Source: Pontiellaceae bacterium
GTDB lineage: Bacteria; Verrucomicrobiota; Kiritimatiellia; Kiritimatiellales; Pontiellaceae
Length of the DNA: 58,518 nucleotides
Direction of reading: 5' to 3'
Assembly (NCBI GenBank): GCA_016937035.1
Contig: JAFGWS010000093.1
Coordinates: forward strand, 1 to 58,518
Both the position numbers and the translations under genes were made by a program. Below are positions 34,387 through 44,104 of the stretch, one piece after another. The notes under the pieces were generated by a model. That model was not told the DNA's origin, searched no databases, and saw nothing but the letters and a program-made list of their open reading frames with translations. Within the stretch, counting starts at the first letter, position 1. The number at the start of each line of letters is the position of its first letter.

Positions 34387-35577
34387 ATGAGAAAACTTTT
34401 AATTACATTATCATTATTTGGAGTATCGTTCACCTGCGCACAGGAGACCGAACCCCCCACGATTTCTGAAGCACTGGAAAACCTGTTCAACAAATCGACC
34501 ACCGAAGCTAAACTCCCAGCGGAAAAGCCGATTTATCTAAAACTTGTCCCCAGTCAAACCAGCGAGCGCAGCACGCTGATCTACCGCTGTCGTTATATCA
34601 GCGCAAAATCAATCATCGATTCCATTGAGAGTGCTACCTCGCCGACCGGAACGGTGGAAACATCGGATGAGCAGAACATCATTACGATCAACGATGAAAA
34701 TGCACAACTGAGTGAAATTCAGGAGCTGCTGCTGTCGCTGGATATCCCGACGCCGCAGGTCCTGGTTGAAGCGGAAATCATCGAAGTGCAGATGGGCAAC
34801 GGCTCTGAATGGGACGCCGGGCTCAGCCTCGGATATGACGGAAGCAGCGCCGGCACCCTCCTTGGCGGCGTTAAGGGCTACCCTTTGGGCACAGCACTCT
34901 ATCCCTCTGATAACGGAACGTGGATTGATATTGTGGGCGACATACAGGACAATGTGGACATCAATGCCCGGCTGCGGTGGCTGGAGAACAATGATAAGGC
35001 GGAAATTCTTTCCTCTCCCAACCTGCTGGTTGATTTGGGAACCACGGCAACGGTCTCGACCGGAACAGACCAGCCGCTGCTGAACGTCAGCGTCAACAAT
35101 GGAGTCAGCCAAGAATCGGTCTACTACAAACGAACCGGCGTCAACCTGCGGGTAACCCCTCAGATGATCAACAAAGACTCGGTTACCCTGCAGGTTCGTC
35201 CGGAAGTCACGTCCGTGGTCGGCTATGCAAAGCTGAGCGCATCCTCCGAGCCGCCGATCATTTCTGTTCGAAACATTGACACCAAGCTCAATGTGAAAAA
35301 CGGCGGTGTGGTCATGATGGGAGGCCTCTACTCCAGCAAGGATATTGAAAGAGAGGAGCGCGTTCCGATTCTTTCCTACATCCCCTTTATCGGTCGGCTC
35401 TTCCGGAGCACCACCGTTACTCAGGAGCAGGTCCAATTGATCTTCCTGCTGAAGGTAACCATCGTTCCCGAATCCCTCGACAGTGTTCTGAAGAATATGG
35501 ATTTGTCGAAGGAGGAAGTAATGGGTGCCGGCGAAATTCTGCGCGGTGTGCTGGAACCGGAAGCGACTGAGGAATAA
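34387..35577 (+). CDS. Compact outer-membrane secretin, first gene of a MacAB-like operon
   Basis: A 396-residue secretin. Signal peptide 1-18, then a short linker, one N1/NolW-like ring domain (about 60-125: LIYRCRYISAKSIIDSIESA ... LSEIQELLLSLDIPTPQVLV), then the secretin barrel (about 126-380). Hallmarks are PQVLVEAEIIEV, NDKAEILSSPNLLVDLGTTA, GVNLRVTPQMI and the C-terminal VPILSYIPFIGRLFRSTTVT followed by EQVQLIFLLKVTIVP, the family consensus. It lacks the N0 and N2/N3 domains of GspD and the AMIN domain of PilQ, and no T2SS or pilus gene is near. It is followed at 5 bases by the adaptor gene, then the ATPase and permease. Ribosome site AAGGATATCTAA. Confidence 0.9.
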   Translation: MRKLLITLSLFGVSFTCAQETEPPTISEALENLFNKSTTEAKLPAEKPIYLKLVPSQTSERSTLIYRCRYISAKSIIDSIESATSPTGTVETSDEQNIITINDENAQLSEIQELLLSLDIPTPQVLVEAEIIEVQMGNGSEWDAGLSLGYDGSSAGTLLGGVKGYPLGTALYPSDNGTWIDIVGDIQDNVDINARLRWLENNDKAEILSSPNLLVDLGTTATVSTGTDQPLLNVSVNNGVSQESVYYKRTGVNLRVTPQMINKDSVTLQVRPEVTSVVGYAKLSASSEPPIISVRNIDTKLNVKNGGVVMMGGLYSSKDIEREERVPILSYIPFIGRLFRSTTVTQEQVQLIFLLKVTIVPESLDSVLKNMDLSKEEVMGAGEILRGVLEPEATEE

Positions 35578-35582
35578 GCACC

Positions 35583-37070
35583 ATGTTTAAATTCAGAACA
35601 CAAAAAACCATAGTCGCCGGGCTGCTGCTGCCCCTCCTTTGCGCAACCCTGCTCACAGGCTGCTCCAAGGAAAAAGAGGCGGACAAAACGATGGACAAGC
35701 TCTTCACGGCGCGTAAGTCGGACCTTATGATCGGTACCCTCCTGCGCGGAACCGTGAATGCAAAGAAAAAGCATAAACTCTCCCCGGAATCAGCTTACCG
35801 CAACAAGCTGACCTGGATTGAAAAGGAAAACACTTCTGTCAAAAAAGGTGACGTAGTCATCCGTTTTGAAACGCAGGAGCTGCTCGATGAAATCGCCGAG
35901 CGCCGCGAAGATCTGGAGATCCAAAAGAAAAACCTTGAAGTCACAAAGGAAGAAAAGCGCATTCTGTTGAGTGAAAACCAGAGCAGCCTGCGCGTTTCCA
36001 GCGACAGAGTCGTGTCGGCCGAAGAAGACTATGCCCGTTATTATAAATATGATGGGAAAAAAGCTAAAGACGACATGATGGAGCGGGTGGATTCCTACGA
36101 GCTCGCCTTGGAAAGCGCCAAGGAGGACTATCGCGCCCAAATGGATCTGATCAGCAACACGATCTTTGACAACGAAGCCAGCAAAGAGCGGGCCCTTTCG
36201 ATTCTGGAACAACGGAAGAATACGGTCGAACAGCGCGAACAAAATTACGAGGATGCCAAGTTCCAGCTCAAAATATTCAAAAAATATACCTACCCCAACA
36301 CCCTGACGACCAAAAAGAATCAGCTGGAACAAGCGGAACTGAATCATGAAAGGGTTTTGGTGAGTACCGCCTCACGCGTCATTCAGAAAGACGAAGAAAT
36401 TGCCCGCGATGAAGCCCGTATTGCGCGTGCCGAATCTGAACTGGCGCGTTTGGAAAGTTATATTCCAATGATGGAAATCAAAGCCCCGGTGGACGGCATT
36501 CTGGTCTACGGCGATGTGGACCGAAACAACAGTCAGGTCGAAGAGATTGAAGTCGGTATGGAGTGTCACCGCAACCGGGTGATTGCCACCATCCCGGAAA
36601 TGGACAACCTGATTGTCAACTTTGACATCCCCGAACAGTTCCGTCACCGCATCAATTCAGGAGACAAAGTGATCATCACCCCGGACTCCATCCCATCGCT
36701 CAAAATCAATGGGGCCGTCGATACGATTGCGGTGGTCCCTGTGAATCAGGTTTCGTGGGATACCACATCGCCGAAAATTTATGCCTCCACCATCACGCTC
36801 GATCAGCAAAATCGACAGTTGGTGAGCGGAATGAGCGTTCAGATCGAGGTCATTGATGAGGTCATTGAAGGCGCAATCAACATACCGGTTGAAGCCGTAT
36901 TTGAGGAAGACGGCGAAAACTTTGTCTATATCGCCGTAGGCAACGTCCCGAAAAAGCAGCCGGTTACCCTCGGCAAATCGAACGACCAGTCTGTCCACGT
37001 CATAGAAGGTGTTGAAGAGGGCGACAAGATTTTCCTCTACAGTCCTTACAAGCTGGAAGCGTCGGAATAA
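35583..37070 (+). CDS. Lipoprotein periplasmic adaptor (HlyD/MacA-like) with long coiled coil
   Basis: A 495-residue membrane-fusion (periplasmic adaptor) protein. Lipoprotein signal ends CATLLTGC|SKEK (Cys27), so it is anchored by lipid. Order: barrel/lipoyl half 1 (about 45-95, KKGDVVIRFETQELLDEIAE), a very long alpha-helical hairpin (about 96-290) rich in Glu/Arg/Lys heptads, lipoyl half 2 (PMMEIKAPVDGILVYGDVDR, about 299-318), beta-barrel (RVIATIPEMDNLIVNFDIPE) and membrane-proximal domain (INIPVEAVFEEDGENFVYIA). The hairpin is longer than I expect for E. coli MacA, which would suit contact with a partner other than TolC. It starts 5 bases after the secretin stop. Confidence 0.9.
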   Translation: MFKFRTQKTIVAGLLLPLLCATLLTGCSKEKEADKTMDKLFTARKSDLMIGTLLRGTVNAKKKHKLSPESAYRNKLTWIEKENTSVKKGDVVIRFETQELLDEIAERREDLEIQKKNLEVTKEEKRILLSENQSSLRVSSDRVVSAEEDYARYYKYDGKKAKDDMMERVDSYELALESAKEDYRAQMDLISNTIFDNEASKERALSILEQRKNTVEQREQNYEDAKFQLKIFKKYTYPNTLTTKKNQLEQAELNHERVLVSTASRVIQKDEEIARDEARIARAESELARLESYIPMMEIKAPVDGILVYGDVDRNNSQVEEIEVGMECHRNRVIATIPEMDNLIVNFDIPEQFRHRINSGDKVIITPDSIPSLKINGAVDTIAVVPVNQVSWDTTSPKIYASTITLDQQNRQLVSGMSVQIEVIDEVIEGAINIPVEAVFEEDGENFVYIAVGNVPKKQPVTLGKSNDQSVHVIEGVEEGDKIFLYSPYKLEASE

Positions 37071-37072
37071 TC

Positions 37073-37765
37073 ATGAGCGTATCGCGGGAAATCATTCGGC
37101 TCGAAAATCTCGAAAAAACCTACTTCAAAAAATCGCTGGCGGTACCGGTGCTCAAGGGGATCAACCTCTCGATTTATGAAGGAGAGTTTAACGGAATTAT
37201 GGGCACATCGGGTTCGGGCAAAACCACCATGCTCAACATTCTCGGCCTGCTCGATGTCCCGACCGGTGGAAAATATTTTCTGGACGGCGAGGAGGTGGAA
37301 CACTTTTCCGATGACCACCTCGCCCTGCTGCGTAACCGAAAAATCGGCTACATCTTCCAGAGCTTCAACCTATCGTCCCATCTGACGATCGGCCAGAACA
37401 TTGAAGTTCCGATGATTTACGGCGAAATTCCGAAGCGTGAGCGTGTGAAACGGGCAAAAGAGCTGGCGGAAAGCGTTGGGCTCGGGCACCGAATGAACCA
37501 CCGCCCTGCCGAACTCTCCGGCGGAGAATGCCAGCGGACTGCCATTGCGCGGGCACTGGCCAATGAGCCGGCCTATCTCCTGGCCGATGAGCCGACAGGA
37601 AACCTCGACGAAAAAACCGGCGAAGAAATCCTGCGGCTGTTCCACGATCTGCACGAACAGCAGCAGGTAACCATTGTAATGGTAACCCATAACCCGGAAT
37701 TGGAATCGCACTTTGACCGGGTGATTCGTCTACGTGACGGACGGGTGGTTTCCGAGAACGACTAG
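37073..37765 (+). CDS. LolD/MacB-type ABC transporter ATPase
   Basis: A 230-residue ATPase with complete motifs: Walker A IMGTSGSGKTTMLN (about residues 42-55), Q-loop YIFQSFNLSSHL, signature LSGGECQRTAIARALANEPA, Walker B YLLADEPTGNLDE and the H-loop VMVTHNPELE. The LSGGE(C/Q)QR and GTSGSGKTT forms are typical of the MacB/LolD/FtsE subfamily, which works with FtsX-like permeases by mechanotransmission. In E. coli MacB the ATPase is fused to the permease; here it is separate. It begins 2 bases after the adaptor stop, overlapping signals, so translation is coupled. Confidence 0.95.
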   Translation: MSVSREIIRLENLEKTYFKKSLAVPVLKGINLSIYEGEFNGIMGTSGSGKTTMLNILGLLDVPTGGKYFLDGEEVEHFSDDHLALLRNRKIGYIFQSFNLSSHLTIGQNIEVPMIYGEIPKRERVKRAKELAESVGLGHRMNHRPAELSGGECQRTAIARALANEPAYLLADEPTGNLDEKTGEEILRLFHDLHEQQQVTIVMVTHNPELESHFDRVIRLRDGRVVSEND

Positions 37766-37779
37766 AAAAGGAACTTAAG

Positions 37780-39042
37780 ATGCTGATACAGGATCTCTTC
37801 ACACTATCCATGCACAATCTGTTCCTTCACAAGATCAGGTCGTTCCTGACCTCGCTGGGCATCATCTTCGGGGTAGGCAGTGTGATTTCTATGCTGGCCA
37901 TCTCCGGCGGCGCAAAAAAAGAAGCATTGGCGCAGATTGATGCCATGGGCATCGACAAAATCATTGTCTATACCAAAGTCAAGGAGCAGGGCGGAAACAC
38001 CTCCAGCACTTCGACAACCTCGATTCTCGACTATGGACTCAACTATTCCGATTACGACAGTATCCTGAAAATGGGGAACATAAATCGGGTTACCACCGCC
38101 CGCAGGCTGCGGACGCCGATCACCCGAGGACTCGAAACCCTCGATATTGAACTTTTCTGGGTATCGCTCCACTTTCATGAAGATGTCAACTGCGATGTGG
38201 TGAAGGGGCGCTGGCTCACGCCCTCCGACTTCGAAAACAGCAGCACCGTCTGTGTGATCGGAAAGAATGTAAAACGCAAGTTGTTTGGTCTCGAGGCAAC
38301 AGAGATCATCGGCAAAACCATTACTGCCGGCAGAAGCAACCTAAGAGTGGTCGGTGTAATCGAAAACAAAGCCGACTCCAAAGTGGAAGGTATTAACAAC
38401 CTCAACGACTCCATCTTTATTCCATCCTCAACCGGAAAATCTATTTTCACGGAGTATGAAATGATCGGAACCCGGACCTCCGCCGCCATTCATCACGTCG
38501 AAAACGACCTCTTCATTGTAAAAGTCGACGACCTTGAAGTGATTGACCATACCGCCAAACGAATCAGCGCGTTCATGGATCAGGCTCACAAAACGAAGGA
38601 CTGGGGCATCAGCGTCCCCCTCAACCTGCTCCGAAAAAAAGAAGCTACACAGAATATCTTCACCATTGTGATGGGCTCTATTGCCGGAATCTCGCTGATT
38701 GTCGGAGGCATCGGCATCATGAATATCATGCTCGCCAACGTATATGAACGACGCAAGGAAATCGGCATACGCCGCGCCATGGGCGCGCGCAAGCGCGATA
38801 TCCTTTACCAATTCCTCATCGAAACAATATTCCTTACCGTGATCGGCGGACTGTTCGGCATCGGCCTGGGCATCGGCATTGCGGAAACCATAACCCGCCT
38901 GACCGGAATGCCTTCCGAAGTGTCACTCCTGAGCATTGTTGGCTCCATGGCCATTTCCGGCATGGTCGGCATTGTCTTCGGCACCTATCCCGCCTGGAAA
39001 GCCGCCAACGAAAATCCTATCAAAGCGCTCAATGCTGAGTAA
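37780..39042 (+). CDS. MacB/FtsX-type ABC permease
   Basis: A 420-residue permease. First membrane helix about 20-45 (IRSFLTSLGIIFGVGSVISM), a large periplasmic MacB_PCD-type domain (about 46-290), then three C-terminal helices (about 290-420) with GIGIMNIMLANVYERRKEIG, RRAMGARKRDILYQFLIETI and a final PAWKAANENPIKALNAE. This is the MacB/LolC FtsX family layout. With the partner ATPase it should move a substrate from the periplasm into the adaptor-secretin conduit. It starts 14 bases after the ATPase stop with AAAAGGAACTTAAG as ribosome site. Confidence 0.95.
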   Translation: MLIQDLFTLSMHNLFLHKIRSFLTSLGIIFGVGSVISMLAISGGAKKEALAQIDAMGIDKIIVYTKVKEQGGNTSSTSTTSILDYGLNYSDYDSILKMGNINRVTTARRLRTPITRGLETLDIELFWVSLHFHEDVNCDVVKGRWLTPSDFENSSTVCVIGKNVKRKLFGLEATEIIGKTITAGRSNLRVVGVIENKADSKVEGINNLNDSIFIPSSTGKSIFTEYEMIGTRTSAAIHHVENDLFIVKVDDLEVIDHTAKRISAFMDQAHKTKDWGISVPLNLLRKKEATQNIFTIVMGSIAGISLIVGGIGIMNIMLANVYERRKEIGIRRAMGARKRDILYQFLIETIFLTVIGGLFGIGLGIGIAETITRLTGMPSEVSLLSIVGSMAISGMVGIVFGTYPAWKAANENPIKALNAE

Positions 39043-39075: not shown

Positions 39076-39834
39076 ATGGAACCATCCAAACGTATAGCCA
39101 TCATTACTGGAGCAACCTCTGGAATTGGAAAAGCAACCGCACAGCGGTTTATCGAAGTCGGGATTCAGGTGGTCGGCAACGGGCGCAACGCTGAAAAGCT
39201 GCAGGCGCTGGAGCAGGAACTCGGCAAAAACTTTTGCGGCGTGGCAGGCGATGCCTCGGACGAATCCACCGTAGACCAACTCTTTGAAACGGCCATCGAG
39301 CGCTTTGGGCGGGAACCGGATATTGTCGTGGCCAACGCCGGGCGTGGCCTCGGCGGAGCCGTCCGTACAGCCGATCTTTCACAGCTTGAAGAGATGCTCA
39401 ACATCAACGTAGCCGGCGTACTTTATCTAACGCAGAAAGCGTCCCAGCTAATGATCAAAACGCAGGAGACCGCCTTCCCGAAAACCGCCGCCGATATCGT
39501 CATCATCGGCTCCGTCGCAGGAAGACACGTCACCGCATTCAGCGCTGTTTACAGCGCCACCAAGTTTGCCGTCCACGCACTCGCCGAAGGCCTTCGCCGC
39601 GACGTCGGCCCCAAAGGCGTGCGCGTTTCGCTGATCCAGCCGGGCATTATCATCAGCGGATTTCAGGAAGGGGCAAACTACAGCGATGAGCTCGTCGAAA
39701 GCTTCCACAAAAACTTTGGTCCCTTGCCCTCGTGCAACGACATTGCCGACACCATTCGCCACATCGTCTCCCTGCCGCCGCATGTAAACATCAGCGACAT
39801 CGTCGTCCGCGCCACCCGTCAGGATTATCCTTAA
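39076..39834 (+). CDS. Short-chain dehydrogenase/reductase (SDR)
   Basis: A 252-residue classical SDR. NAD(P) binding: IIATG-type loop ITGATSGIGKATAQRF (about residues 9-24). Catalytic residues: Ser in VIIGSVAGRHV and the YxxxK motif AVYSATKFAV. VVANAGRGLGG gives the N-A-G motif, and VSLIQPGIIISGF follows. It lies 33 bases after the permease gene on the same strand, so it may be the fifth gene of the operon. The substrate is not predictable; a role in making the exported compound is a guess. Confidence 0.9.
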   Translation: MEPSKRIAIITGATSGIGKATAQRFIEVGIQVVGNGRNAEKLQALEQELGKNFCGVAGDASDESTVDQLFETAIERFGREPDIVVANAGRGLGGAVRTADLSQLEEMLNINVAGVLYLTQKASQLMIKTQETAFPKTAADIVIIGSVAGRHVTAFSAVYSATKFAVHALAEGLRRDVGPKGVRVSLIQPGIIISGFQEGANYSDELVESFHKNFGPLPSCNDIADTIRHIVSLPPHVNISDIVVRATRQDYP

Positions 39835-39902
39835 AACGGGCTCATGCACCCGCGGCCAGTTCCTCAAAACCGGGCGGCGCTACTGAGCACAGCCTGCGGT
39901 GG

Positions 39903-39920
39903 GCAGGCAGAGATGCCTGC
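39903..39920. repeat. GCAGGCA...TGCCTGC palindrome
   Basis: GCAGGCA (39903-39909), loop GAGA, TGCCTGC (39914-39920), in the spacer between the SDR gene and the convergent large membrane protein. It is the third of the same family (with 8118-8134 and 23850-23866). Confidence 0.7.
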
Positions 39921-39981
39921 TCTACATTTTTCACCAGCTGTAGTTCATTTCACAACGCGCTAATTATGGCCCGGCCCCGAC

Positions 39982-41955
39982 TCAGCGGTTGAAGAGGTTG
40001 TTGAGCAGGCCGCCGGCGGCATCTTCGACGGGTTTGGTTGCGCCGTTGAGAATACCGTCGACTTTATCACCCAATGCTCCGCCTAGGAGGTCTCCGGCCT
40101 CTTCGCCGATTTTGTCTTTCAGTTCATCGTTGAGGCGCTGTTTCGCTTCGTCGATTTCATCATCGATCTTCTGATGGAGCTCCTCCGTATACTCATCCAT
40201 CATGGCTCCGGCGCGGCGGGCCAGCTGTGTTTTTCCCGCGGCGATGAGCGACTGCTTGAGGTTGGCGGTCAGCTTATCTACATCGACCTTGACGCGCGGC
40301 GCGTAGAGCGGGCCGATGAGCGAGCCTTCAATGGAAAGCTGCTCGACCGATGCAAAAACTTCGCTAGCGAGGTCCGCATCCATCCCCAGAATTTTTCCCC
40401 CTTCATCCACGTCTGCCTTCATGCCGTGAACGAGCAGCGAAAAGGGCAGTTCAAGGCCGTCGAGCGAAAAGGTGCCTTCGGTGCGGATATCCACTTTGCC
40501 TTCCTGGAACGAGATGGGGAAGGAATCGCTGGTTTCCAGATGTTTACCGAAGTTCAACGCATTCAGATGAACCGCCAGCGCGTGCGGGGTGTCCGGGGAA
40601 TCAAAGCGCAGAGTAACTTGTGCCAGCGCGTCGCCATCCGCAGCTTTCCCGTTCTCAAACGGTTTGAGCGCAAGTTCGGTGGCTTTCTGATTCAGCCGCG
40701 GGTTGCTGCTGAGTTCGGTGCCGACCAGCGCCTGCGGCGGGAGGCTGTTTCCGAGGTCGATATCCACAATCTCAATTCGGTGGATCAGCCATGCCGGGTG
40801 TTCATTGGTAAGATCAGCGACGGCTTTGAGATAGCCGTCCTGCTCTGCGGTGCGGTGGGCCTCTTCCAGAGCCATTTCCGGCGCTTCTTTTTCGGAGCGC
40901 TTTTGGAGATATTCATAGAGCTTGCTCCCATATTTTTCCACGTTTTCGGCTTTGGCGAAATAGTCCTTCAGCGTTTTCCCTCGGGCGTCATCTGAAGGCT
41001 CTTTATCTTTGGGCGGCTTTCTTTTTTCAGGATAAAGTGCTCCGGGTTTTTCGCGGAGAACATCACGCTTTACCATGCTGCCGGAGAGGAGGTCGATCGT
41101 GAAGCGCCTGGCCAGCAGATCGCGTACATGGAGTTCGGCCTTGAGCGATTCAACCTCAAACAGATTGTGTGTCGGTTTATCGGGATCGGTAATCTGCAAG
41201 CCTTTAATCCGAAGGCTGCCGCGTGCGAGCGATAGATGGGCATCGGCAATATCCACCTGTGCGCCGGTGATGGCGGAGATCGATTTTTGAATGCTTTTTT
41301 TGAGCGTGAAGTCGAGCAGGAAAAATTCCATCGCTAAGCTGATCAGTAAAACAACGCCCACCAGAATGAGTCCGGCCTTGCGGAAAAGCGGTTCTTTTTT
41401 TGTCTCCTCCATTTCGTGTTGGGACAACTTGCTTTTTCCGAAAGCGAGCCGAAGGAGAAAGCGTGAAAACTTGTTGCCGACGGCTTTGCCGATCTTCTCG
41501 TGTTCTGCCGCTCGGAGCATCTTTGAGCGGGTACGCATGACGATGGAGGAAAAAAGCAGGCCGAATCCAAGGCCGATCACCAGTGCATACGGCAGCCCGC
41601 CGACCATGGCATAGACATCCAGCTTCATCAGTGCCGTACCCGGTGCATTGACCAGTGCGCGGAAGAGCCCTTCCAGACCCATATTATGAATCATGCCGAA
41701 GCCGGTGAGAAAGCAGACCTTCGCCAACAGCAGACTCAACGGTTTACCGATCGCGAGGCCGAGCATGACAAAGCTGAAGTTAGCGTTCAGCAGCAGGGTC
41801 ATCAGAAACGCCAGCAGCAGCGTCAGACTGACGGCGGGGTTAAACGCAATCAGAACGCCGAACAGCGTGCCCAAAAGGATTTCTCTTCTCCCCGCGCCGC
41901 CGCGAAGAATTTTGCCAATCTTCCGAATAAATTTTACAGGGTTCAGCGGGCTCAT
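39982..41955 (-). CDS. DUF2062-like membrane domain fused to AsmA-like/TIGR03545-like protein
   Basis: A 657-residue protein; start at 41955 follows GGAGGATGTT. The N-terminal third (about 1-160) has the layout of DUF2062/TIGR03546 proteins: GRREILLGTLFGVLIAFNPA, LTLLLAFLMTLLLNANFSFV, then two further hydrophobic pairs. A second membrane anchor sits at about 195-220. The rest (about 230-657) resembles the AsmA-like TIGR03545 family: ITGAQVDIADAHLSLARGSL, IKGLQITDPDKPTHNLFEVE, ELHVRDLLARRFTIDLLSGS, and a coiled C-terminus (EELHQKIDDEIDEAKQRLND). As I recall, the two families usually occur as adjacent separate genes; here they are one. AsmA-like proteins are linked to lipid transfer to the outer membrane. 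Confidence 0.7.
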   Translation of the reverse strand: MSPLNPVKFIRKIGKILRGGAGRREILLGTLFGVLIAFNPAVSLTLLLAFLMTLLLNANFSFVMLGLAIGKPLSLLLAKVCFLTGFGMIHNMGLEGLFRALVNAPGTALMKLDVYAMVGGLPYALVIGLGFGLLFSSIVMRTRSKMLRAAEHEKIGKAVGNKFSRFLLRLAFGKSKLSQHEMEETKKEPLFRKAGLILVGVVLLISLAMEFFLLDFTLKKSIQKSISAITGAQVDIADAHLSLARGSLRIKGLQITDPDKPTHNLFEVESLKAELHVRDLLARRFTIDLLSGSMVKRDVLREKPGALYPEKRKPPKDKEPSDDARGKTLKDYFAKAENVEKYGSKLYEYLQKRSEKEAPEMALEEAHRTAEQDGYLKAVADLTNEHPAWLIHRIEIVDIDLGNSLPPQALVGTELSSNPRLNQKATELALKPFENGKAADGDALAQVTLRFDSPDTPHALAVHLNALNFGKHLETSDSFPISFQEGKVDIRTEGTFSLDGLELPFSLLVHGMKADVDEGGKILGMDADLASEVFASVEQLSIEGSLIGPLYAPRVKVDVDKLTANLKQSLIAAGKTQLARRAGAMMDEYTEELHQKIDDEIDEAKQRLNDELKDKIGEEAGDLLGGALGDKVDGILNGATKPVEDAAGGLLNNLFNR

Positions 41956-42116
41956 AACATCCTCCAATTTTCGTGCCCAAAAGTTTAGATTTAACTCACA
42001 CGTCCGGTCAATAGAATTGGCAGGCCCATTCGGGGCGACAAAATAGTACACATATTGTCCTTGATTCGTGCGGGCTCCCTGTCTAGCTTCTTCTGAAACA
42101 AAAAAAGGAGACTGTC

Positions 42117-42808: not shown

Positions 42809-44104
42809 ATGGAAAACGAGTCCCGAAATATTGAAATTGGTTCCCGGTCGAGGAAGCGTTTCTTTTTGGCCCATAAACATTCAAGTGCATTGGTGGTTGC
42901 CATTGCACTGCACGCGGGTTTAGCGGTGGCCGCTCTCAGTTTTGTGGTGGTGCAGGCGATGAAGCCGGAGCCGGCGGTTTTTGTCGCCACGGAGGTACCA
43001 CGTCCGCAGCCGAAGCTGAAGAAGATTGAGATTCCGGTGAAGGACAGCAAGAAGAACAAAGCCCCGAAGCTGCGCCAGATGATTACGACGAAGCCCAACG
43101 TGGCCGTAAGCCTACAAATGCCGGAAATGGTCGGGATTAAAGGAGGCAGCGGATACGGGAAGGGAACCGGACTCGGAGGAATGGGACTGGGATTCGAATT
43201 TGACTTGTTCGGCGGCGGCAGCGGATCCGGAAACGAACTCGTTGGGACATTCTATGACCTGAAGCAGCGGCAGGATGGAAAACTGACCAACATTGGAAAG
43301 GCGCTGAAAGATGACTTAGAGAATCCTATGGGAGCGCGTGGTGGGCTGGCCAGTAATGAGACGCAGGATCGGGCGATAACCGTGATTAAAAGCTTCATTA
43401 ACTCCGGGTTTGAGCAATCCCGCTTGGAGGACTATTTTAAGGCACCGAAGCTTAAATATGCACAAACGATCATGATGCCGATGATTAAAGCCGATGCTGC
43501 TCCTGAAGCGTTCGGAGTGCAGGATCGGGTTGATGGAAAATTCTGGATTTGCCATTACAAAGGGCAGATTGCTGCACCGGAAACAGGGGAATATCGGTTT
43601 TGCGGGCTTGCTGATGATGTTTTAGTTGTTCGTCTGGACCGAAAACTCGTGCTGGATGCCTGCTGGCCTACACATATTGGAAAAATGACTTCATGGGAGA
43701 GTGATGATGAAAACAATCGGCGTTTTTCCATTGATGGAAGCAGTAACGCCGGAATGGGTTTCGGCGCCCGCCCTCAGAATAACCGCGCGTTTCCTGGCGG
43801 TGGAAGCGGCAACAACGGGATGGTTATCGGCGATTGGGTAAAATTGAAAAAGGGAGAGCCCGTCGACATCGATATTGTGATCGGGGAGATTCCCGGCGGA
43901 GAATTTATGGCCCGCCTTCTTATTGAGCAGAAAGGGGAAACCTATCGGATGGTCGGCAGCGGCGAGGGACGTCGTCCGGTGCTTCCGATTTTTAAAACCG
44001 TTGAGATCGATAATCAGGAAATGATTAACTTGATGAAGCTGAATGATAATGAGATGACACTGGACGGTCCGGTTTTTGGCGTGAAGATCAACACCGCCGA
44101 GTAA
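42809..44104 (+). CDS. Membrane-anchored TonB-like/PA14-like protein with Gly-rich linker
   Basis: A 431-residue protein. After a charged N-terminus, one hydrophobic anchor (residues about 27-48) is followed by a proline/lysine-rich stretch (TEVPRPQPKLKKIEIPVKDS) like the spacer of TonB or GspC proteins, and a Gly-rich linker (about 108-142; GGSGYGKGTGLGGMGLGFEF). Residues about 240-400 resemble a PA14-like carbohydrate-binding domain (FWICHYKGQIAAPETGEYRF, CGLADDVLVVRLDRKLVLD). A second Gly/Asn patch interrupts it (GSSNAGMGFGARPQNN). No TonB C-terminal domain is visible. The role is unknown; sugar sensing or surface attachment is an inference. A tRNA gene follows. Confidence 0.65.
   Translation: MENESRNIEIGSRSRKRFFLAHKHSSALVVAIALHAGLAVAALSFVVVQAMKPEPAVFVATEVPRPQPKLKKIEIPVKDSKKNKAPKLRQMITTKPNVAVSLQMPEMVGIKGGSGYGKGTGLGGMGLGFEFDLFGGGSGSGNELVGTFYDLKQRQDGKLTNIGKALKDDLENPMGARGGLASNETQDRAITVIKSFINSGFEQSRLEDYFKAPKLKYAQTIMMPMIKADAAPEAFGVQDRVDGKFWICHYKGQIAAPETGEYRFCGLADDVLVVRLDRKLVLDACWPTHIGKMTSWESDDENNRRFSIDGSSNAGMGFGARPQNNRAFPGGGSGNNGMVIGDWVKLKKGEPVDIDIVIGEIPGGEFMARLLIEQKGETYRMVGSGEGRRPVLPIFKTVEIDNQEMINLMKLNDNEMTLDGPVFGVKINTAE

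Follow-up and report, generated by a model that had tools for sequence, protein, structure and literature searches.

A MacAB-like export operon of Kiritimatiellota and Lentisphaerota in which a minimal secretin appears to stand in for TolC

The outer-membrane ducts of tripartite ATP-binding cassette (ABC) exporters are, as far as is known, members of the TolC family, and the established settings of secretins are the type II secretion system (T2SS), the type III secretion system, pili and filamentous phage. A stretch of 58,518 nucleotides from a Pontiellaceae bacterium (GenBank assembly GCA_016937035.1, contig JAFGWS010000093.1, positions 1 to 58,518; hereafter the window) carries, at 34387-39042, a four-gene module in which these two kinds of machinery seem to be joined, namely a secretin, a MacA-like periplasmic adaptor, an ATPase and a permease (Table 1). 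An earlier note, made from the letters alone, had described four plus-strand genes packed at intervals of 5, 2 and 14 bases, and the listing of open reading frames (ORFs) agrees, the domains being assigned by family scans. The nearest protein relatives, where their source is named, belong to Pontiellaceae, Kiritimatiellae and Lentisphaerae. Related loci and genomes are cited by our own L and G numbers.

Table 1. Coordinates of the module in the window, and the loci of its TolC-linked sister operons
Feature	Position	Strand	Basis
Secretin of minimal build, 396 aa, with signal peptide (by eye), a single ring domain, the secretin barrel and a helix at the C-terminus; putative exit channel of the outer membrane	34387..35577	+	
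Predicted single periplasmic ring domain of the secretin, residues ~50-118	34534..34740	+	Secretin_N match and model elements E50-55 to H105-118
Secretin domain PF00263, residues 199-360	34981..35466	+	profile 2-168 of 169
MacA-like periplasmic adaptor, 495 aa, probably a lipoprotein	35583..37070	+	sequence and structure matches; lipobox by eye
Adaptor coiled-coil hairpin, residues 98-293	35874..36461	+	predicted structure
Hairpin tip, residues ~185-203, without the TolC-docking-like motif of TolC-linked sisters	36135..36191	+	motif scan
MacB/LolD-type ATPase subunit, 230 aa	37073..37765	+	ABC_tran; Walker A, LSGGE and Walker B by eye
MacB/FtsX-type permease subunit, 420 aa	37780..39042	+	MacB_PCD and FtsX; PDB MacB; tree
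OEP-adaptor-ATPase-permease operons	L145, L147, L148, L153-L172 except L163		

The secretin matches PF00263 in Pfam with an E value of 6e-40. A Secretin_N match at residues 65-124 (23.7 bits, below the cut-off of 28.2) and the one mixed alpha/beta domain of the structural model, where the predicted local distance difference test score (pLDDT) is ~80-89, both point to the single ring domain that the earlier note had proposed, and the protein is predicted to have one such domain. In two sets of 33 and 20 family members, which have ten rows in common, Pfam found PF00263 in all and Secretin_N in 25 and 13, and at an E value of 0.001 none had N0 (PF21305), STN or AMIN. The window secretin falls far below the cut-offs of the GspD (148 vs 351 bits) and PilQ (152 vs 284 bits) models. 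A Foldseek search with the model, whose confidence is modest (mean pLDDT 68), returned T2SS and pilus secretins; the sole PHROG match is PHROG 1012, the pIV protein of filamentous phage (E 1e-51), beginning at profile position 102 and leaving the N-terminal part of pIV unmatched. In a 47-row tree a branch with support 100/98 sets the module secretins apart from 24 other secretins: 13 from eight same-phylum genomes (six with the module), one from L065 and ten database proteins. Seven weak rows of the full set of 54 had been left out of that tree. By eye, a lipobox may also be present in the secretin of L013.

The adaptor is weakly recognised by Pfam (HlyD_D23, E 1e-5, under the cut-off) and by the RND_mfp model (80 bits; cut-off 95), and it matches E. 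coli MacA in the PDB (E 2e-7). Its structural model (pLDDT 84) has MacA, in the MacAB-TolC complex, as top Foldseek match, and predicts a hairpin of two helices (98-192 and 198-293) of ~95 residues each, with pLDDT above 90 along most of it; reckoned at 1.5 Å per residue, each helix of this predicted structure would measure ~142 Å. Together with the lipobox LLTGC, identified by eye, the model upholds the earlier description of a lipoprotein adaptor with a very long hairpin. Pontiellaceae adaptors carry such a lipobox (35583-35680 in the window), and many adaptors of Lentisphaerota (e.g., P0173, P0185) seem, by eye, to have an uncleaved N-terminal anchor; at L046 (2020-3594) the adaptor frame is broken into two ORFs in a draft contig. 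The ATPase matches ABC_tran (E 6e-31) and scores 236 bits against LolD (cut-off 308) and 231 bits across the ATPase part of MacB. The permease carries MacB_PCD (E 4e-29) and FtsX (E 3e-24), matches MacB in the PDB (E 2e-44), and lies nearer to MacB (184 bits) than to LolC/E (39 bits; LolCE cut-off 362), so that the module stays under the cut-offs of both LolD and LolCE.

The association of these genes is conserved among relatives. A single contig scan gave 79 loci, of which 60 are close relatives (L001-L060, with L044 and L060 from the same assembly); all are labelled as Lentisphaerota, Victivallales or Kiritimatiellae save L013 ('Verrucomicrobia') and L016, L025, L045 and L049 ('uncultured bacterium'). 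At L034, L041, L052, L057 and L060 the contig starts inside or just before the adaptor, and among the 55 loci with upstream sequence a secretin lies directly upstream of the adaptor, on the same strand, at 54, the exception being L048, which has other genes there. A secretin profile applied to 288 same-phylum genomes, with up to five candidates scored per genome, gave 342-632 bits in 44 genomes and 228-277 bits in 11, the other matches listed being below 155. The intermediate secretins all adjoin an adaptor (11/11), and nine also an ATPase and a permease; among the nine, L112 represents the same contig as L010, its low score being due to truncation. Of four secretins just under the score step (L121-L124), none is accompanied by an adaptor, ATPase or permease. 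Among the best 30 secretin matches (L080-L109, many from genomes already counted in the contig scan), 29 run into an adaptor, L102 being the exception. Seen from the adaptor, 240 genomes of the phylum hold 47 adaptors of at least 318 bits, and the module secretin lies upstream of 46. A comparison of protein lists, in which 26 of 51 family-1 secretins and none of 26 more distant Lentisphaeria secretins matched an adaptor contig (120 of 341 adaptor matches listed), was settled by the survey of close loci.

The sole miss among the 47 adaptors is G134, a Victivallales genome that holds both L048 and L102, with the adaptor-ATPase-permease trio and an orphan secretin on separate contigs. By eye, the trio (L048, 1-6145) sits behind carA-like and RNase D-like genes, and the orphan secretin (L102/L152) adjoins an M28-like peptidase gene instead of the T2SS genes with which the earlier note had thought it might be found. 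In G106 and G214 (L120 and L119) the secretin and adaptor have no adjacent ATPase or permease, and a permease with 50% and 49% identity, respectively, to that of family 2 lies on another contig (G106:C25 and G214:C258; L149 and L150). The genes are thus separable, as the earlier note had considered, in these three genomes; in G134, however, the missing part is present elsewhere in the genome, as is a likely candidate for it in G106 and G214.

Counting the window, 55 distinct loci have all four genes, in the same order and on the same strand, which is not a matter of chance. The modules fall into two families, one comprising the window and Lentisphaerota and the second found in Pontiellaceae and Tichowtungia aerotolerans (contig of L115); G003, the genome of the closest locus of the contig scan (L001), has one module of each. 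When the four gene trees of the 55 loci (56 rows, L112 duplicating L010) are compared pairwise, 34-43 of 53 splits are in common and the distance correlations are 0.845-0.940, a level reached in 0 of 500 permutations, though the agreement owes partly to shared species history. Around the module loci no conserved neighbour family was found beyond the four genes, T2SS platform genes and pilMNOP not being searched by name. Candidates for a fifth or cargo gene were rejected, the next neighbour clusters resembling antisense ORFs of module genes or occurring in at most eight loci.

More distant adaptors of the same phylum served as a control for the outer-membrane partner. Of these, 21 consecutive ones at 253-206 bits and one each in G106 and G214 (~117 bits) were opened, giving 23 loci; at 22 a TolC-family OEP lies directly upstream, followed by adaptor, ATPase and permease (Table 1), a secretin occurs at none, and L163 has no recognised outer-membrane partner gene. 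Three OEPs were called by Pfam and the other 19 (194-563 bits) by a home-made profile built from those three and the TolC-like gene of L066. The latter locus and L065, both from Firestonebacteria, had been considered as further cases of the module, and L066 was rejected: by eye, its TolC-like gene adjoins MacA- and MacB-like genes, after which comes a pilus-like locus where pilM/N/O-like genes adjoin their own PilQ-like secretin. Both the TolC-linked and the secretin-linked kind are present in G003, G055, G164, G106 and G214. In G003, which has two secretin modules, the TolC-type MacAB operon is L145 (G003:C118), and the region upstream of it has, by eye, another adaptor-like ORF, and also an ORF of 403 aa that gave no Pfam match.

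One branch of the adaptor tree (46 rows) parts 23 secretin-linked from 22 TolC-linked adaptors with support 100/99, and the permease tree (45 rows) has the same split with the same support. Adaptor scores do not rank the two kinds cleanly, since secretin-linked L110 (G177, 174 bits) and L111 (G236, 152 bits) score below the TolC-linked adaptors, yet the trees place both among the secretin-linked rows. It therefore seems that TolC gave way to a minimal secretin in a MacAB-type exporter on one occasion, a single exchange of the outer-membrane channel being the simplest reading of the trees. The trees are unrooted, and TolC would be the older partner because MacAB works with TolC elsewhere.

The hairpin segment of the adaptor is 199-200 residues long in 21 of 23 secretin-linked rows, the others being the divergent module adaptors L110 (8444-10138; 258 residues) and L111 (2209-4050; 316, or 318 under a different cut), whose segments are far longer. 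In a wider secretin-linked set it measures 199-202 residues in 53 of 55, and in the TolC-linked rows 192 residues in 21 of 22 and 194 in one. The long hairpin is thus a trait of the whole adaptor family and does not compensate for a short secretin, as the earlier note had suggested it might; length does not follow the partner, whereas the motif at the tip does. A strict tip pattern, L-x6-[STN]-x2-[DE]-[LYF], which E. coli MacA fits, occurs at the hairpin tip in 16 of 22 TolC-linked vs none of 55 secretin-linked adaptors, three of the latter carrying it elsewhere in the hairpin; a looser TolC-docking-like motif is present in 22 of 22 TolC-linked adaptors and absent from both secretin-linked sets (0/23 and 0/53). 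In the parts of PMC4446572 that deal with it, the RLS tip motif is described as important for TolC binding, yet not absolute. The most conserved columns of the hairpin include Y153, F232 and P238; a belt formed by these residues was dropped as candidate contact for the secretin, the TolC-linked adaptors looking alike there by eye.

Taken together, the products of the four genes probably make up a single envelope-spanning exporter of MacAB type (type VII ABC), in which a secretin with one ring replaces TolC, and we put the probability of this reading at roughly 0.8. At its core, the use of a secretin for TolC in a MacAB-like exporter, which the earlier note had proposed, is well supported by the gene linkage, by surroundings free of T2SS-type ATPases among the matches listed, and by the sister operons with OEP; of the original proposal, the length compensation and the cargo role of a neighbouring gene (see below) fell away. 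The LolD/MacB-like ATPase would bind and hydrolyse ATP and thereby move the MacB/FtsX permease, whose periplasmic domain would drive cargo from the periplasm or the outer leaflet of the inner membrane up the adaptor tube; the distal hairpin would meet the secretin ring, and the cargo would leave through the secretin barrel. MacB is described as a type VII ABC protein acting by mechanotransmission in the relevant parts of PMC12646458 and PMC7943197, and a MacB-like mechanotransmission and an outward direction of transport, with the cargo taken up on the periplasmic side and pushed outward, would be expected here by homology; adaptor and secretin would be in physical contact. The cargo may be bulky and periplasmic, such as a folded protein, a lipoprotein or a large lipid conjugate, because the bore of secretins is wide and TolC-type sisters exist in some of the same genomes; as several genomes keep those sisters, the secretin-linked pump probably handles cargo unable to pass through TolC.

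Several observations weigh against this interpretation. The secretin model has a mean pLDDT of only 68, and with all 54 rows in the tree the support of the module-secretin clade falls to 80/48, one long-branch fragment joining the module secretins at 83/93. Part of the module is unlinked in the three genomes discussed above, and at L013 (3445-5284), where the contig ends, there is no ATPase gene between adaptor and permease. The looser tip motif was defined after inspection of the TolC-linked tips, and the differences in partner and tip fall on one split, so that they represent one evolutionary event and not independent replicates. The conserved belt of the hairpin seems, by eye, to be shared with TolC-linked adaptors, and hence points to no secretin-specific contact. 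Secretin rings have about 12-15 subunits and MacA is a hexamer, which leaves a symmetry mismatch to be solved.

Among other explanations, the ABC-adaptor trio could serve to assemble the secretin or to control its quality, by Lol-like delivery or by control of gating, with the secretin acting as a stand-alone gated pore. The ATPase scores best against LolD, and the accounts in PMC12646458 include non-export roles of type VII ABC proteins (LolCDE, FtsEX, YbbAP-TesA). We nevertheless consider this explanation unlikely, since the sister operons have a TolC-family exit duct at the same place, fitting export, the permease is nearer to MacB than to LolC/E, and the best structural match of the adaptor is MacA. 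Alternatively, the secretin might belong, as outer-membrane pore, to a T2SS or type IV pilus whose other genes lie elsewhere, and merely share a transcript with a MacAB-like pump that uses a TolC from another locus. T2SSE-type (PF00437) ATPases are present in 20 of 20 module genomes, and OEP/TolC homologues together with several other secretins in 7 of 7. The PF00437 figures rest on the better part of 191 matches; among the matches listed, none lies within 45 kb of a module secretin on the same contig in the 20 genomes, some contigs being shorter than 45 kb, and the nearest is ~46 kb from a module, in G001, whereas other secretins lie within 1 kb of such an ATPase (e.g., G037:C8, G086:C1). In the seven genomes no OEP match was nearer than ~99 kb on the module contig, some contigs being short, and the nearest, in G005, is a 26-bit fragment. 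The module secretins, moreover, form a clade apart from the 24 others and lack N0, the adaptors are without the tip motif of their TolC-linked sisters, and the linkage has held across two phyla while the neighbours changed, all of which makes this second explanation similarly improbable. A merely fortuitous or selfish clustering of an unrelated secretin and ABC exporter, for which the three genomes with separated parts might speak, is largely refuted by the linkage at 46 of 47 adaptors, the matching trees and the fact that the split genome still has both parts.

The proposed secretin-linked exporter can be compared with several known systems. It resembles MacAB-TolC of E. coli in its MacB-type permease with periplasmic core domain, its LolD-like ATPase and its MacA-type hairpin adaptor, MacA and MacB being the closest solved structures by sequence and MacA also by fold; it differs in having a secretin as outer-membrane part, in the ATPase and permease being separate proteins, in a hairpin segment of ~200 residues vs ~96 in the roughly matching stretch of MacA, and in the absence of an RLS-type tip. 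In the OEP operons of the same phylum the genes stand in the same order, the adaptor, ATPase and permease are homologous to those of the module, and the hairpin is of nearly equal length (192-194 residues), but a TolC-family OEP takes first place and the tip motif is present throughout (22/22). In the portion of PMC7943197 devoted to it, AatPABCD of E. coli is a lipoprotein secretion system where a LolCDE/MacB-like ABC protein and a periplasmic adaptor export a periplasmic substrate; unlike the module, it has no secretin but relies on AatA, a homologue of TolC, and on the acyltransferase AatD. With GspD of the T2SS and PilQ the module has the secretin barrel domain in common, but its secretin shows none of the N0, STN and AMIN domains sought, lies far under the model cut-offs and has no T2SS/pilus ATPase nearby among the matches listed. 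The pIV protein of filamentous phage is likewise a short secretin, whereas that of the module is set in an ABC-adaptor operon. No description of such a secretin-MacAB arrangement was found in the titles and abstract openings listed from the open-licence PMC literature, in most cases a part of the matches, subscription journals being outside the scope.

Downstream of the permease, at a distance of 33 bases, the window contains a short-chain dehydrogenase/reductase (SDR) gene (39076-39922; Pfam SDR, E 1e-43; NCBIfam SDR_TniO family, 340 bits, cut-off 300). The earlier note had suggested that this enzyme could make the cargo; among 61 loci, some too short downstream, the window and L001 are the only ones with a similar SDR next to the module, and the SDR was rejected both as maker of the cargo and as part of the module. 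A terminator-like hairpin follows at 39901, and the SDR may share a transcript with the module, but the promoter and terminator scan gave counts at the level of shuffled sequence, i.e., at chance level. Further on, 39982-42051 on the minus strand encodes a 689-aa protein with weak matches to DUF2062 and DUF748/AsmA, all below Pfam cut-offs, resembling a fusion-like large envelope protein, and 42809-44104 encodes a 431-aa protein with a weak PA14 match (below the cut-off) and, by eye, an N-terminal membrane anchor.

A wider proposal, which we offer tentatively, is that the module represents a distinct secretion pathway, in which an ATP-driven MacB-type engine would export folded, bulky periplasmic cargo through a secretin and thereby fill the role of a T2SS with no need of a pseudopilus, an N0/GspC link or a GspE motor; it may have arisen by one displacement of TolC in an existing operon, followed by diversification in Kiritimatiellota and Lentisphaerota. 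As a secretin system of four components it is minimal, and it occurs in the named strains Victivallis vadensis DSM 14823 and Tichowtungia aerotolerans (L115), both of which we take to be in culture. An operon family with TolC-linked and secretin-linked versions makes the exchange of a channel and the docking of adaptor and channel directly testable, and its sister adaptors, with near-equal hairpin length and differing tip and outer-membrane partner, provide a natural comparison of how adaptors and channels pair.

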